Positions 6,668 to 47,132 of a stretch of 64,000 nucleotides of DNA are shown here, one piece after another (the first letter of the stretch is position 1; each line of letters starts with the position of its first letter). The position numbers and the translations under genes are program-made. The stretch is from NCBI GenBank assembly GCA_001986395.2, contig MQVO02000007.1:620001-684000 (forward strand). Direction: 5' to 3'. The notes under the pieces were generated by a model, which did not search any database, had not been told where the DNA came from, and saw nothing but the letters and a program-made list of their open reading frames with translations. Origin of the DNA: Irpex lacteus. Its lineage: Eukaryota > Basidiomycota > Agaricomycetes > Polyporales > Irpicaceae.

Positions 6668-8654
6668 TTATGAGTACAACGCATTGAACTTGACTGGAGG
6701 TAATGGAGAGTCATCAGTGCCTAAAACCACCTGGTAAGTGAGAGGCTCGGAGGTACGCAAGACACCATTGCAACTCACCAGCATGATAGACATACTCGCC
6801 GTTCTTCTCAAAAACTTCCACTTCCTTATGTCCCCACCACATCTTCATGCTTGGGTTCCAATCGTCGATAAGGTTCGCGAGAGTTTGGATGTGACCGTAG
6901 GCGGCTGGCTGAGGACCTTTGGGTTTTCGTGTAGCCAAGAATGTCATGCATGCACTGAAGAGGATGAGGAAAATTGTCAGGTACCAGATCTAGTACAGGG
7001 TAGTGTTTAGTGCAAAGAGAGGAAAAGGGAGATACATATTGAGAGAACGCACTTGAACAGAACGCATGACGATGGGTAGTGCGAGTATACTAGCACATCG
7101 CGAACCAGCTTTGTGTGAACCCAGCGTGCAGCCTTCTCCGATCAAACTACCCTGCAAAGATAGGCAGAAGCCAAATATCCAATCTTCGCGTGGACAGTTA
7201 ATGTCGTTAGCTGGGCCGTTTCCTTGCTAACAGGACAAGATGCTCACGCAAGATGGTCTTTCCAACCAATAGCAAAATACTCGGCCAGAAGGAAGTAAAA
7301 GACTTGAGTACTTCCGCAGCCTCAGTTCCTGTTTTAGTGGTCGCCTTCCTCCAAATATCTTCGTCCCGCAGAACGTTGACGATCAGCTCGCAGCAGTGTA
7401 ATGCCATCGTGAGAGAGCCTTGGACGAGGATGAGTATAAAGAAGCATACAAACCAATTTAACGCAGGGGTAAAGACGAGTGGAACCGTGACCCCGTTCGA
7501 ACGAGAGTTGGGGAAGAATGACCAGGATTGAAGGCCAGGAGTGGTCTCTTTGAGGCTGGTATTGGCCCATACCGCCACAATAATGGCCCCCCATACCCCA
7601 CAAGCTGTTACGAGCGTCCAGAGTGCGATGATGGTCCGGCGAACACCAGAGCGTGCTTGCCAGGAAGATGGCTGTATAGTCGATGGCCTCCTGGGTGGTG
7701 GCATTGTGCCTGGTGCGGGCGCCTCCTCTTCGGCTCTTAGGGAGTCCACGACGCTGTACATGCACAATCCTTCGATTCGAGCAACCTTTCCTGCCGTCAT
7801 GGCTGCATACGTGTTATTGAGCGGAGAGGCGCTCCATGTCAAGACTTCGGTTTGGTAAAAGCCAATCGTAACGATGCAGCACTTAAGAAGGATACACACC
7901 CCGAGCACGACCAGCGGGGCACCGATGACGGCCACAACTACCATCTCGCCCTCGCTCTGGCGTATCATAGACACATCAAAGACACTGAGAGAGACTGAGG
8001 CGTATGAGAGGATGAGAAGGAGGCCCATGAAGAAATTACACGCTGTGCCATTGGGGTGAAATGATGGGACGCGAGGAGCCGAGAATAACCGCAGATTTGT
8101 GTGGAACTGCAGAGCAGATCGTTGCCCCCATAGGTCATGGTTCTTCCTAGCTGCCGTATAAAAGTTTTGAATTGGCGTTGTAGCTGTGACTGTTGATCGT
8201 TGCGTAACCGCATGCACGTATCCCAAGGATTCGGTTGCAATGGTATTGAGTTGTGTGAAGACCAAACGGACCAGCTCCGTGACAATCTCGGGGTGCTTGT
8301 AATTGCTCACGATAGGGAGTATTCCAACGACCTCTGTCGTGATGTATAAATTAGTACAGAAACAAGTTCAAGTTTAAAAAGAGATGAGGCGGTACCGTCA
8401 TCGTATGACTTGTGAGTAGCGGCGACTATGCCACACACTAGACAGAGCAATCCAAAGACGGCTGCAAAAATCAACCCTATCAAAGCCGTCCGGCGAGACT
8501 GGCGGCCAGATTCCTCATCTATTAATTGAGGAGCCCTATGACCAGCTTTACCTGTAGATGGAGGAGGATATAGCGAATCCGTGGACGTGATAGTGTTTGC
8601 CGTATCTGGCTCCAGTAACCAATCGTCGACGTCGACAACGTCTTTTACGGTCAT
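6668..8654 (-). CDS. Multi-pass membrane protein, tandem paralogue B
   Basis: Paralogue of the gene at 4090-6038, same strand and same order of blocks. I chose the ATG at 8654 (MTVKDVVDVDDWLLEPD) because it aligns with the start region of paralogue A; an in-frame ATG at 8696 would add 14 residues. Membrane segments include LIGLIFAAVFGLLCLVCGIV, FFMGLLLILSYASVSLSVFD, LWTLVTACGVWGAIIVAVW and WFVCFFILILVQGSLTMALH. The shared signature CELIVNVLRDEDIWRKAT and the terminal block RKPKGPQPAAYGHIQTLANL are present. Final exon gives GTDDSPLPPVKFNALYS with stop at 6668-6670. The two copies sit about 0.6 kb apart, consistent with tandem duplication. Function unknown. Confidence 0.8.
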
Positions 8655-36677: not shown

Positions 36678-39600
36678 TCAATGCTTAGAATGATGACTCC
36701 CATGGCTCGACGCAGGCGACGGCGTCCCCTTCGGCAACGACCCCGGCGGACTCCTCGCACTATGCAACACAATCTCCCTCTTCGCAGGCAACCCCCTCGG
36801 CGAGTTAGATCTCGAGTCCCGTCCCCTGGCGTCCCTCTCCGAGTCCGTAGTCGGTGAGGTGGTGTTCGGGGGAGAGCGTGTAGCGTTTGACGATAGAGGC
36901 GGGAGACCCTGGCTTGAGGGCGTCGAGGGACCGTGGCTGACGAGAGTGGCTTGGCCGATGGGGCGAGGATGAGGAGGGAGCGTCGTAGGGAGTGCGGGGC
37001 TTGGAGGGTAGGAGTGCTGGTTGTCGACTTGACGAGTCTCTGGAGAGTGCGAGGTTGGTTGTTGGCGGAATGGGATAGGCGACGGACGCGTCGAGCTCGC
37101 TGCACCGTTCGTAGGTGACGAAACCCTTCTGTTGCTCATACTCCCCACACGAGACCTCTTCGGGTCAGCCTGCACATCATCAGGTCCAGGACTCAAAGGC
37201 CGCTTGTTCATGGGAGGCGACGGGCGACCACTAATGAGCGAGTTATGCTTGCTCAGCGACTGGGACGGCATCCTCGAGCTGCCAGGAGGCGAGCGCAATG
37301 GGGGCCCTTGGCCAAACGCACCACGAGAATCCCCAGGACCAGAGCGCGAGGGCGGAGCCTTCGACATGTTCAGCAGCGTATCAATCGCACCACCCTCGCC
37401 GTCGTAATCCTCATCGACGACCCTCGTAGGAGGCAAATGCACCGAGTTGGTAGGACTAGGCTGGGCGGACCTGTTAGCCGACCCAGAGCCCGAGCCATTC
37501 GAGCTCATAGGCTCAGGACTGCCTTGACTCCCACCCTTCGACCTGTAATCGAAGACACTCGTATGCGAGTCTTGTCGCTGAGGTCCAGGCTGAGGCGTAT
37601 CGTCCTTCCTCTTCTGCTGCCTCCTCTTCTTCTCCTTCTTCGGATCGGCACTGACACCAGGTCCCATACCCACGCTCGGAGACACATCGATCTCCTGCGG
37701 CTTAGGCGTCGACACAACACCGTTGTTGCTGCTCACACTCCCAGGCGCACGTCTCCGCGTACCAGAAGGCATCTTCGCACCGCCGTCGACGACTTGCATC
37801 CTCGGACTCTCACTCGCCCGTCCAGGTCCACCGAACCCAGGGCCCGACGGACCAGGCACAGACTGCGGCGGACGCATCCTCATCGACTCAGGACTGGCAG
37901 CATACCGCTCATTAAGCACATGCAACTCGCGCTCGCGTTCACGTCCCCGCTCTTCTCTCTCCCTTTCCCTCTCGCGCTGTTCACGCTCGTACTCCCTAGG
38001 CGTCATCGGAATCTCGCGTTCCCTCTCTCTCTCACGCTCACGCTCGCGGCCGTCAAGTCGGGGATCGTACCTCCCGTGTCCACGGTCGTACCCTTCAGGG
38101 GAACGTCCACGAGGGACAGGCGGAGGCGGCGGTGGAACACCAGCTTGCTTCTGCTCCCAATACGACGACGACTGCGTGCGTGAAGGAGGGTACCCAGGGT
38201 GGGCACTGCGAGGAGAAGCATCAGTCGGGCTCTCCCTCTCCCTCGGCGGACCACGAGACAAGTCGCGATGGTGATGATGTACCGAGTATGCAGAAGGGGA
38301 GTGTGGACGAGAGTAGTACTGAGGAGCCTGAGACGGGTGAGGAGGGGGATAGTCGCCATTTGCTCGGCTTGCGGCACGAAGCTGCTGCTCACGCTCACGT
38401 TGTTCGCGTTCGCGCTCCCACTCACGTTCACGCTCAGCTTGAGGGATACGACGGTCCCAAGCTGGGTCACGAGGATCGCGCTCAGCGGGCAACGCATCGC
38501 GGGGGTACATGCGTGGAGATCTGGAGCGAGAATGGTGAGGGTGCGTGGCTGGGCCCGAGACGGGAGGAGGGCGGTCATTGAACGAGGGAAGGCGGTTACG
38601 AGTGGGAGGAGATTGAGAGATGGAGGGACGACGAAGAGGTGCGGGAGCGAAGGAGTCGTGAGGATGGCCGGGATGTGGTTGTTGGCCAGGAGCGGGCTGC
38701 AAAAGCAATCCAGATGGCGGACCACCACGGGGTCCTTCACGAGGGAAAGACGACGGCTCGCGGAGGACAGGGGGTCTGTCGATGTCCATAGCCATAGGAG
38801 CAAGTGCAGGATGAGAAGGAGTGCGCTGACTGTCGTCGAGCACGACTGGCGGAGGTGGACGACCACCGAACGGACCCGGCGACGTACGCCCGGAGAGCTG
38901 AGCAGGAGGCGCAGGCAGAGGCAGATCGTTGCCTGCAGGACCACGAGAATCTGCACGGAAGATGGGTCGGTGAGGGGGACCCGACTGCAACATGAGAGGC
39001 GGTCCCGAGAGGCCCGCTGGCTGGTGCATCACCGGGTTGGCGTACGCCGTCGGGTGGACATCCTGTGGACCAGGAGCGGCAGGCAGTGCCTGGCCCGTAG
39101 CCTGAGCGTTCTTGAGCAATGCAAGACGCTGTGCGATGGCGACGTTGCTCGGATCGAGTTCCGCAGCGCGTGCGTACGCATCGATGGCATCCGAGATCTG
39201 GTTGTTGCAGCTCTCGTACAGACTTCCCAGATCGAACCAGACTTCAGAGATGTATGGGTTGATGCGGATAGCCCTGGAGTAGGCGTCGAGGGCGTCGCGG
39301 TACTGGTTTATCTGGAAGTAGAGAACGCCGATAGAGCACCAGAACGTAGGGTTGCGACCGTCCCTGTAGACAGCCTGCTGGTAGGCTTCGTATGCCTTGT
39401 TGTATTTCTGGCCGGCCATGTATGCGCGACCGAGCAAGTACCAACTCTGAGCATCCGACGCGTCTGATACATTATTACGTGTCAGTCCCATGTCTTCTTC
39501 GACAAGGACTAGACACTTACCGGCCTCGAGGGACTTTGTCAGATACTGAATAGCAAGATCTTGGTTCTGGAAGGAGGAGCCGTCCTGATGGTACAGCCAG

Positions 39601-41009
39601 CCTAGTTGTTGGAGCACCTTTGCGTGGTTAGGGTTATCCTGAACCACGCGTTCGTATGCCTCGCGAGCACGAACATGCTGCAAAGGGGCGTTATCAGAAT
39701 TGAATTGACAACCGGTAACGACGAAATACTCACGTCATGCTGTTGCTCATATACATGACCAATCTGGAACCAAATGTCGGCATGTGCGAGTGGGTTCGGT
39801 GGATTACGCAGAATCCGGTCGAAGCACTCGAGACTCTCGTGGTATTTACCCTGTTGCTTGTATATTATGCCTAACCTGAAAAGAATCTCATTGGCCTTGT
39901 CAAAGTCTAACATGACTTGAGTACCTTTGATGAGCGCATACGACAACACGACAGATCTGATAGGCTTACCTTTGTCCATGCGAAGGACAGAGGAGAATGC
40001 TTCCTCGGCATGATCCAGCGAACCATAGCGGTCGTACAGGATACCAATGCCATACCACAGCTTTGGGTCTTCCTATAGGAAGGTTTGAGTGACACGTCTT
40101 CGTGAAGCAGTATGTTCACACGCACCTTGGGATTGGGCAGAAGATAGAGGGCCTGCTGATAAGCGGCATACGCCTTCTGCAGGTCATCTTGCATCAGGTA
40201 GCAATGGCCTACAGACACCGTGAGCTTTGCGCCGCATGAGGCCACGTGTCCGCAACGACGTACCGAGGGCACTCCAGACCTCGCCATTGTCTTGCTGCAA
40301 GTTCAACACGCGTTGGAAGTACTCGACAGCCTAAAAAGGCAATCGATCAGATCAGGGATTGCGCGGGGCTCCGGGGAATTCCCGAAGATCGAGATTATCT
40401 GACGCGATCACGTACCTTGGGATAGTTCTCTTTGATCCGGGCGATACCAGCCACCTGGGTGAGGCCAGGCAGTGACATCGCATTGTGACGCAGCGCGTTT
40501 TCGTAAGCCGAGAGCGCGTGTTCCAAATTGCCCATCTGCTCCGCGACCCGTCCTAGTTTGATGTGAAATTGATGCCACAATTTCCAGAAGGAATGCACGG
40601 TCGCAAAGAAGGAAGGACGTTCACGCGCCGGAAGTAAAATATAAAAAAGAAGCACGAAAGGGGCACACGTCAGGCTTTGTTCGCAGAGTTCGATGATCGC
40701 AGCGAGATTAGACGGCGGCTGCTTACCTATCAGTAACCAGGTCTGTTCGTTTGCTTGGGCCAGTTTCTGCACTGACGCGGGCACCACGGACCCACTGCCG
40801 TTGGCCACCGCGGGGGAGGCAGCTGCCAGGGACGCTGGCGGGGGCGGTGCGGCATTAACCGCGAGAGGTGTGTTTGGAATCGAGCTACCGTTCAGATGGG
40901 GAGGAGGAGCGTGGGAAAGCGGATGGGGAGGAGGAGGAAGAGAGTGGGCGTGGGCGTGAGGGTCGTGCAGGCGGACATCGCGGTCCTGGCGAGCCTGTCG
41001 GTGAGTCAT
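36678..41009 (-). CDS. CYC8: CYC8/SSN6 general transcriptional corepressor subunit (TPR protein)
   Basis: Subunit of the Cyc8-Tup1 corepressor. I start at 41009 (MTHRQARQDRDVRLHDPHAH), leading into a His/Pro/Ala-rich stretch and LAQANEQTWLLIG. About ten TPR repeats follow in order across several exons: MGNLEHALSAYENALRHN, QDDLQKAYAAYQQALYLLPN, LFRLGIIYKQQGKYHESLEC, IGHVYEQQHD, REAYERVVQDNPNHAKVLQQ, WYLLGRAYMAGQKYNKAYEA, IGVLYFQINQYRDALDAYSR and DLGSLYESCNNQISDAIDAY. The long last exon (from about 39460 to 36678) encodes a Pro/Ser/Arg-rich disordered tail with Arg-Glu repeats, ending SSHGSHHSKH. This is typical of fungal Ssn6. Upstream in-frame codons to 41303 exist, but the 41009 ATG looks the better start. 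A MITE lies 460 bp upstream. Confidence 0.95.
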
Positions 41010-44006: not shown

Positions 44007-44008
44007 TA

Positions 44009-44106
44009 CAGCGCTTCCGGTATATAATGAGAAAAATCGTTTTTTTCGCGCCTGCCTCATTTAGTAATTGCCATAACGGGTAACAGCGTACGCGCGTCGC
44101 CGACGC
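44009..44106 (+). repeat. Left terminal inverted repeat, 98 bp
   Basis: Starts CAGCGCTTCCGGTATATAAT and ends GCGTCGCCGACGC. It matches the reverse complement of 47033-47130 at all 98 positions; identity stops at the next base (G versus A). The TATATAA run inside may serve as a promoter element reading inward. Confidence 0.95.
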
Positions 44107-44174
44107 GACTCGGATACTCGACTACAAGCTGCGACCTTTCGCAGCACGTTCCTGCTCGTGCCTGCTATCTGAAA

Positions 44175-45743
44175 ATGCCTGATGCGGTTACTGAATTCTT
44201 ATTGGCAAAGCTACCAGGGGTAGGGGGTTCCGCAGGTGCGTGATTGTGTCTGAGGTGTGCGGCTGTGTTGCTAACTTGTGGTAGTCCGTGGGTTCAAGCA
44301 CAACACACCGGTTACGATGCAGAAGGCTTCCAAACGGCAGCGCGAGCTCTCGGAAGACCCTGGATCACAGGGCTCAGACGACGAAGGTCTTTGCGAGGTC
44401 GATGCTTCGGCTACCAAGAAGCCAAAGATATCTGCGGACGAGCACATCACTGTACACCCCATCATCCTCAAACCGCGTCCGGCTACTCTGAAAGCACGCA
44501 AGCAGATGAAACAGGTTATGACGAGCTCGTGCAGAGCCCGTTCTTCATGGGTCCGACCACTACAATGGACGACATGCACGATTTGTTAGCTGTGCGGCTC
44601 CGCACTGCAGTCGCCAATTTAGACACGGACCGGCTGCAGTGGAGGTTCGAGAAGCCGAAGAATGCTCCCCTGAAGCCACTAGTGGACCTGGACGGATTCT
44701 CGGCGATGATGCGGGCTGTGGCCGGTAAGCGAGGCCCTGACCGCATCATCAATCTGTATTTACCACCGCTGAAGGCAGAGGTGGGATATATGCGCAATAT
44801 CTGCTCTACGTAGCTGCTGATCAGTCATATAGGCCAGCGAAAACGATGAAAATATTGATGCATACCCACAGATTAGCTTACTGCATGCTCAGAAGGTGAG
44901 TATATGAGTATTTACTTCGCCCGCAACTTCATCTCTGTTGGCTGACATTTCCGAGGCGAGTATTGATAAAAGCAGCGAGCCGACCGTCCGTCTACTTGAA
45001 GACAAGTATCCCGTTGGTAAAAGCGCTCTATTCCCAAGCAAGCGAGTTTACGAGAAAGATGGGCGTGCATGGGAACTCAATCCCCTTCGCTTGCAAGTAT
45101 GGGCAATTGCTATAGTACGTTGTTTTTGTCTTTGATCGGGGCTATCATTGAGCTTTCTAGTTGGACGGCCGTGCAACGTTGGATGCACCCCCAACATCAA
45201 ATCATTTTGATATCGACAAATGCTTACGCTCCGGTGAGTACACTCCTTTTCTATGATAATCGTTATCAATTCGCTTCATTAGAACCCTCTGCGCCGATGA
45301 TGCCATCGCCTCATGCGGCTATGCCTCTGTTTCCAGGCTTCGGCATGCATCCAGGCACCCAGCTGCCGCTCATGCCTGGTTATCCATTCCTACCAGGATA
45401 TCCATTTCCATTCTATGGTGCTCCACACGCACCTCCTCCTGCGGTTCCAGGTGAACTGTCTTTCCCTCCTTCCGTAGCTTCTATCACTACCCAGATCATT
45501 CCACTCCCTCGTCCCATCTCGATCGCAGAGTTTTGCACATATTACAAGATTCCGGACAGTGATCGTGATAAACTGGTAAGCCTGGAAATTGAATTGGGTG
45601 ATCGCAGATGTGAGCAGCTTGGCGAAGATGAGTGGAAGGGTGACGGAAAGTTTACCAAACTGGCTTGGGATCGTTTCAAGGAGAAACATGCCCGCTTCTG
45701 TACTGATATCGCAAATGGACTCTGGGATGTGACTGAAAATTAG
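44175..45743 (+). CDS. Transposon-borne second gene, proline-rich protein of unknown function
   Basis: Start MPDAVTEFLLAKLPGVGGSA at 44175, just inside the left TIR. Exons then give VRGFKHNTPVTMQKASKRQR, a possible nuclear signal in DASATKKPKISADEH, and SPFFMGPTTTMDDMHDLLAV. RRTA-type sequence is followed by FEKPKNAPLKPLVDLDGFSA, then SENDENIDAYPQISLLHAQK, then ASIDKSSEPTVRLLEDKYPV and LDGRATLDAPPTSNHFDIDK. A Pro/Gly/Met-rich tract (FPGFGMHPGTQLPLMPGYPF) precedes a C-terminal helical segment of about 70 aa (ISIAEFCTYYKIPDSDRDKL to FCTDIANGLWDVTEN), stop at 45743. The introns at 44235-44282, 44779-44830, 44896-44953, 45115-45160 and 45234-45282 join in frame. One frame change near 44515 is not explained by a normal intron. 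It may assist transposition or regulate it; no family recognised. Confidence 0.75.
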
Positions 45744-45803
45744 GATGTATCAAAATAAAGACGTTGTACCGATACTGTATTTCTAAACGTGCAATACCAA
45801 TGC

Positions 45804-46935
45804 TCATACAATATAACCTGCATGCCGAAACCATCCAATTGTCATATCACCATTCACACAGCCACAAGCTTCCAGTATTGCATTGATAGGGTCTCCGCGA
45901 CGCAGGGTAGCACCATGACGACGTAGGTATTGCTTTACTAGATGTAAGATTTAGTCTCAAATATGCACATTAGGTCAGAATAGCTTCAAATACATACATG
46001 CACTGAAAGACTCCTCAATTGGATTGAGATCCGGTGAGTACGCTGGTAAGAACAAAAGAATACACCCTTGAACAGCATATTCAGTACGTGGACGGAGTGT
46101 ATGAGGTGACAACATCATACCGGCTGCTGCCACTAGATTGGCTAGTGTGTCGTTGTGATGTATGCGGCAGTTGTCCAAGACGAGAACACTGCATGCATCA
46201 GGCCACGGCTTCATATAGGGCAACTAGACTCTGGTTAGATGGCAGATATTCAAAGGAGATATGATTACGCACGACATCTTCTGCAATAAAACTCAAAAAC
46301 GCGAGCGAATCGAAGGACCCGGGCAGTGCACGAGCAGCAATATACCCGTCCTTAGAAAGTGCTGCAGCGAGAGAGTATCTGTCGCCTCGAACAAACACAT
46401 CCTTTAGTTCTGCTCGCTTTCCTCGAGGAGCACGGCCATATCGACGGAAATACGCATGCTCGTTCTTGCTCGTCTCGTCTACAAAGACCCACTGAGAGCC
46501 ATCGTCGAGAAACTCCCCTCGGACCATGTCTCGCCACTCCTGGCGAAGTTGTTCATCTCGTTCTAGCGCGAGCTTCCGCAGCAGCTTCCGGGTAAGACCT
46601 GCCTTCTCTAGATTGGCTTGCAACTGAGATCGCGAGATAGGAATATCATGAGTAATAGCGAGCCACCATACAAGTTCATCGAGATAGGCATCCGGGCTTT
46701 CATTGAGCACAAGATGTAGACCAGTTAGAACAGCTCTTGCAATTAGTCTCGGTCGTCCTCGTAGAGGCGATGGTGGCTTGAGTACGTTGTGATAATTCTC
46801 ATAGTTATCTAGCCAGCGGTAAAGACTAGCCACGGACACTTGGAGGGCTTCGCAAATATCACTTGTATGCCAGCCGGCATCCCAGAGCCGAAGCGAGCAT
46901 TCCTTCATATCTGTACTGATGCGGCGGTTGACCAT
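45804..46935 (-). CDS. Tc1/mariner-family DD34E transposase (DDE_3)
   Basis: Cut-and-paste transposase. MVNRRISTDMKECSLRLWDA starts at 46935, followed by a helix-turn-helix (HTSDICEALQVSVASLYRWL), a linker with RGRPRLIARAVLTGLHLVLN and a second DNA-binding part (DIPISRSQLQANLEKAGLTR). Catalytic motifs are WVFVDETSKNEHAYFRRYGR (first Asp), VLVLDNCRIHHND (second Asp) and LPAYSPDLNPIEESFSA (Glu). Three introns must be removed: about 46224-46272, 46053-46106 (54 nt, in frame) and about 45943-45999. Without the second one the Asp-Glu gap would be 52 residues; with it removed the gap is exactly 34. The C-terminus reads ILEACGCVNGDMTIGWFRHA and GYIV, stop at 45804-45806. No disabling change is seen. 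Confidence 0.93.
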
Positions 46936-47032
46936 AGCCAGACTCAGATGTAAGAGAAGGATTCACGAGTCTGATGCAGCATGCACTGAGTGACGAAATA
47001 CAATTTACTTTGTACTGTAGGCTGTCCCAGTT

Positions 47033-47130
47033 GCGTCGGCGACGCGCGTACGCTGTTACCCGTTATGGCAATTACTAAATGAGGCAGGCGCGAAAAAAAC
47101 GATTTTTCTCATTATATACCGGAAGCGCTG
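47033..47130 (-). repeat. Right terminal inverted repeat, 98 bp
   Basis: Perfect reverse complement of 44009-44106; the outermost bases are GGAAGCGCTG followed by the TA duplication. Confidence 0.95.
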
Positions 47131-47132
47131 TA

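Follow-up and report, generated by a model that had tools for sequence, protein, structure and literature searches.

A TA-flanked element of Irpex lacteus encoding an IS630-Tc1-mariner transposase and a convergent second gene

Structure of the Element

The window analysed is a stretch of 64,000 nucleotides of Irpex lacteus (assembly GCA_001986395.2, contig MQVO02000007.1, positions 620,001 to 684,000). At positions 44009-47130 it contains an element of 3122 bp, here designated A1, with two genes between terminal inverted repeats (TIRs): a transposase on the minus strand and a second gene on the plus strand. The genes are convergent, separated by 60 bp, and each reads inward from its own TIR. 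The TIRs start with CAGCGC and are perfectly complementary over 98 bp (98% over arms of 110 nt). An earlier inspection of the letters alone, referred to as the sequence-only reading, had claimed perfect 98-bp TIRs, a TA duplication and a convergent spliced gene inside the same ends; all were recovered at the following positions.

44007-44008, no strand: TA target-site duplication, left (sequence)
44009-44106, plus: left TIR, 98 bp, perfect (comparison of ends)
44317-44780, plus: second gene, exon 1, basic N-terminus and PB1-type region, one base short near 44515 relative to copy 2 (splice model; PB1 fold from the P0002 model)
44833-44895, plus: second gene, exon 2 (splice model)
44956-45114, plus: second gene, exon 3, conserved RLQVWAIAI at its end, intron directly after the last Ile (splice model, alignment)
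45161-45233, plus: second gene, exon 4, GRATLDAPP half of the middle module (splice model, alignment)
45283-45743, plus: second gene, exon 5, Pro/Met/Gly-rich tract and C-terminal helices, stop TAG (splice model, prediction)
45804-45937, minus: transposase, exon 4 with stop (splice model)
45998-46066, minus: transposase, exon 3, SPDLNPIE with the catalytic Glu (splice model)
46121-46223, minus: transposase, exon 2, VLDN with the second catalytic Asp (splice model)
46273-46935, minus: transposase, exon 1, helix-turn-helix (HTH) and FVDET with the first catalytic Asp (splice model, Pfam scan)
47033-47130, minus: right TIR, 98 bp, perfect (comparison of ends)
47131-47132, no strand: TA target-site duplication, right (sequence)

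Exon borders, with GT-AG introns in the five-exon second gene, are predictions made manually from splice signals and sequence similarity; a simple gene finder modelled the transposases and the second gene of A1 and its family poorly, and its second-gene models were partly used for families C and D (below). The four transposase exons encode 322 amino acids (aa) with HTH_23 and DDE_3 domains (PF13358, 87 bits against a cut-off of 28.6). After modelled splicing 34 residues lie between the second Asp and the Glu, the DD34E spacing, and the complete DD34E transposase of the sequence-only reading was confirmed.

Related Elements in the Genome

One other copy of this family, A2 (G000:C313:45899-49005), was found in the genome, separated from A1 by nine substitutions and a single indel in 3.1 kb. 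This second copy supports a real mobile unit, and near-identity at two places suggests recent movement. A truncation of one TIR of A2, with 16 bp apparently lost, was considered and rejected, as the 16 bp were found beyond an inserted element (L038). The latter, element B, is 3877 bp long (G000:C313, approximately 42.0-45.9 kb) and inserted at a TA inside the A2 TIR (L038:4007-4026 and 7900-7920); it has a 29-bp TIR including the TA and encodes an IS630-like transposase, with a second gene convergent to it. The nested position of B fixes the order of the two insertions.

A transposase protein search and a PF13358 search were carried out over the 44.3-Mb genome, both giving lower bounds. The PF13358 search returned 17 matches at E ≤ 0.1, 11 of them above the cut-off and located in eight places: A1, A2, B, C1 (C35), C2 (C313:1.96M), D (C315:252k), C307:11.4k and C187:993k. 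Among the six matches below the cut-off, one was part of D and one, on C37, was a last-exon fragment with no TIR pair seen; those on C308, C267, C20 and C296 were outside the inspected set. The TIR elements of families A, B, C and D are flanked by TA, measure 3.1, 3.9, 4.0 and 4.1 kb, respectively, and have one or two copies each. C1 (L039; G000:C35, approximately 7.3-11.3 kb) has Lys for the catalytic Glu (NPIKQAF; NPIEQAF in C2) and is probably a dead copy, judging from this residue; its second gene is open.

The convergent second gene is present in 6/6 TIR-bounded copies of these four families in this genome, which answers, for this genome, the question raised by the sequence-only reading of whether it always travels with the transposase. 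Full-length copies without it, or carrying it as random host cargo, were looked for and none was seen in this genome. The remaining two places, both with TIRs starting with TACAGTG, are one-gene Tc1 elements that serve as controls within the same genome: C307 (L071:3691-5299, approximately 1.6 kb, intact frame) and C187 (L072:3724-5376, approximately 1.65 kb, broken frame). That the second gene is a chance passenger of A1 would be consistent with the mere two copies of family A and with a frame-shift of the gene in the window; this explanation was rejected, and is regarded as highly improbable, given that a related gene occupies the same position in families B, C and D, together with the synonymous bias and the homologues in two other genera described below.

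The Tc1/mariner assignment of the sequence-only reading was retained only in the wide IS630-Tc1-mariner sense, the transposase passing the NCBI IS630 model (NF033545, cut-off 100) with 153.6 bits for A, 166.9 for B and 167.4 for D (C2 was left out); the one-gene C307 transposase reached 89.2 bits, under the cut-off. Pairwise identity among the transposases of A, B, C2 and D was 32-62%, and each was 21-24% identical to that of C307. The modelled spacing from the second Asp to the Glu was 34 residues in A and D and 35 in B and C2. The protein database held 1629 transposase relatives at E ≤ 1e-5; among the 120 listed, the best one with an organism name was from Trametes versicolor (63%). No relative was found among viral contigs with the transposase as query, nor among plasmid records with the element DNA.

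The Second Gene and Its Protein

In A2 the second gene is uninterrupted and encodes 406 aa, while in the window one base is absent near 44515, in exon 1, and the frame is shifted, which may be a sequencing error. Alternative exon-1 introns for the window copy were tried and dropped once A2 revealed the 1-bp difference. The Pro/Met/Gly-rich tract (approximately 45285-45500, predicted disordered) and the C-terminal helical segment (predicted at approximately 45522-45713), both described by the sequence-only reading, were located in exon 5.

With the 406-aa protein as query, three matches were obtained in the protein database: P0001, a fragment 99% identical to it, a protein of W. cocos (32% identity over 91% of the query) and one of L. 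amethystina (29% over 94%). An alignment as query added three Laccaria-like variants (P0124-P0126). This search finds only proteins of similar length that have 5-residue words in common with the query, and so the short list is weak evidence of rarity. The homologues in other fungi carry the plain annotation "hypothetical protein". P0001 and a transposase fragment, P0004, each have a longest contig of 2993 bp, which may be a single contig with both genes on it.

Pfam scans found no domain in the second protein and, up to E 10, no PB1 family, and the best match in the PDB by sequence had only E 1.7. A structure model of one homologue, P0002, predicts a PB1 fold in its N-terminal part with moderate confidence. 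A five-helix SAM fold was considered for the C-terminal part, with no clear assignment. The second protein has the look of an interaction protein, and no enzyme domain was recognised in it. Such a protein, like the low copy numbers of one or two per family, would also fit a role in the survival of the element, countering host silencing or damping copy number, instead of a role in the transposition reaction; low copy numbers have other causes as well, and we regard this role as distinctly unlikely.

The second genes of B and C were similar by BLAST (in a very small database of open reading frames, with E ~2e-37 for the last exon and ~3e-20 for the middle one). Profiles were built for A (together with P0002 and P0003), B (together with C2) and D and compared with one another. 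Scores were 43.8 (A-B), 42.2 (A-D) and 30.3 (B-D); the highest values among 40 local column shuffles per pair were 21.2, 24.8 and 20.3, and reversed profiles gave 14.9, 19.6 and 13.7. The signal was confined to a middle module, xxLxxxRLxxWAxxI...PP (P 9.5e-8, 6e-5 and 1.8e-5), in which the Ile of WAxxI is immediately followed by an intron in each of A, B, C1, C2 and D. The module of families B, C and D opens with C-x2-H, followed later by C and H; these residues, absent from A, W. cocos and Laccaria, are a possible zinc knuckle.

Searches of the host genome matched only the two A copies with the second gene of A, only B and C with that of B, and only A with P0002. For the second gene of D the matches were D itself and three further places (E 0.098-0.94), and for P0003 they were A and one further place (E 0.64); the weak places (E 0.098-0.94) were outside the inspected set. 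These searches were run exon by exon and an intron splits the key motif, so a distant host gene could escape. These data bear on the possibility of repeated capture, in which different elements independently took up, as cargo, members of a larger family of fungal host genes. Capture would account for strong between-family similarity limited to one short module and for homologues annotated only as hypothetical proteins; on the other hand, none of the five queries confidently matched anything in this genome beyond the elements, and the layout is convergent in all four families with an intron in the same codon. We consider capture unlikely.

Selection on Both Genes

Between A1 and A2 the second gene shows three synonymous and no non-synonymous changes, in addition to the indel; the C1-C2 comparison, over 487 codons examined, shows five and three, respectively. 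Pooled, 8/11 changes are synonymous (P 0.001-0.008 if a share of 0.25-0.33 is expected; for A the computed share was 0.23-0.30). In the transposase 6/9 changes are synonymous (P 0.01-0.04), and the raw ratios in family C were approximately 0.20 for the second gene and 0.21 for the transposase. The comparison of non-synonymous with synonymous rates (dN/dS) proposed by the sequence-only reading thus gave a bias to synonymous change, from few substitutions in two families, and is a sign of purifying selection on the second gene in a small sample.

Interpretation

The data suggest that both genes form one unit, the second being no chance hitch-hiker. The reading that we favour, as the probable one, is a two-gene cut-and-paste transposon of the IS630-Tc1-mariner group in which the second gene is a fixed component of the lineage and encodes an oligomerising accessory factor acting with its own transposase. 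The transposase (HTH and DDE_3, DD34E) would excise the element and insert it at TA. The second protein, with a basic N-terminus, a putative PB1-type interaction domain, the middle module, a flexible linker and a C-terminal helical module, would probably self-assemble and may act on the ends or on the transposase from the same element, either in complex assembly on the ends or in control of transposase activity. Nuclear action and partnership with the transposase are what we infer here.

Several observations weigh against this two-gene reading. No significant similarity was found by profile comparison of A, B and D in the N-terminal parts (P 0.87, 0.031 and 0.09; a narrower N-terminal test scored inside the shuffle range) or in the C-terminal parts (P 0.14, 0.61 and 0.091). 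The P0002 model has a mean pLDDT of 51, and Foldseek against the PDB gave no match for it at E ≤ 0.001 (best E 0.069). Neither A copy appears clearly intact in both genes: A1 has the frame-shift in its second gene, and A2 a Pro-to-Leu change within SPDLNPIE, in the DDE region. Substitution counts are small, those of family C coming in part from a C1 transposase with Lys for the catalytic Glu, and co-occurrence of both genes is established within one genome.

A stronger proposal, advanced tentatively and with more doubt than belief, is that a lineage of IS630-like transposons in mushroom-forming fungi is obligately two-component, a transposase and a PB1-type oligomerising partner having been joined since before the split of A to D, with transposition dependent on, or throttled by, assembly. 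A PB1-type module would be an unusual component of a DNA transposon. The textbook view of Tc1/mariner-group elements is that of self-sufficient transposons with a single gene, and a related second gene kept across deep transposase divergence raises the question of what a one-protein reaction gains from a partner; candidate gains are assembly, self-limitation and escape from silencing. Additionally, some annotated hypothetical proteins of other fungi could be transposon parts.

Other Features

Upstream of the element, the window carries on the minus strand an open frame of 1001 aa (36678-39683), rich in tetratricopeptide repeats (Pfam). Among the inspected loci, a 467-bp sequence with perfect 26-bp inverted repeats starting with TACAGG (L041:2074-2540) is like a miniature inverted-repeat element of a TA-target transposon, and overlapping frames at L042:888-3351, resembling by eye a reverse transcriptase/RNase H and a tyrosine recombinase, are perhaps a DIRS-type retroelement.

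Comparison with Known Systems

In the open-licence literature, as far as its accessible text extends, no description of this two-gene lineage was recognised; Repbase and subscription journals lay outside the search. PIF/Harbinger elements, with a 3-bp target site and a Myb-like partner, also combine a transposase with a dedicated accessory protein, but their transposase is another one, and the elements described here have a TA target and a partner without a Pfam domain. The layout of the bacterial IS630 family is one gene; the transposases of A, B and D pass its model, NF033545, and the present elements differ in their introns and second gene.

One-gene fungal Tc1/mariner elements such as those of Sclerotinia and Pleurotus TIR_1 share the TIR, TA target and DDE transposase; fungal elements of this kind are described with a single open reading frame in 1.3-2.4 kb (PMC4188875) and TIR_1 is listed at 1.6 kb (PMC4905642), shorter than the two-gene elements of 3.1-4.1 kb. 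The closest documented multi-gene Tc1/mariner elements that the literature search found are TBE of Oxytricha and Tec of Euplotes, likened here by description: both belong to the DD34E Tc1/mariner group and hold extra genes inside their TIRs. They differ in their ciliate hosts, in having three open reading frames and, in TBE, a zinc-finger protein, whereas two genes fill the element of the window. All TBE genes are under purifying selection, with dN/dS of 0.1-0.3 (PMC4724952; PMC7325037).
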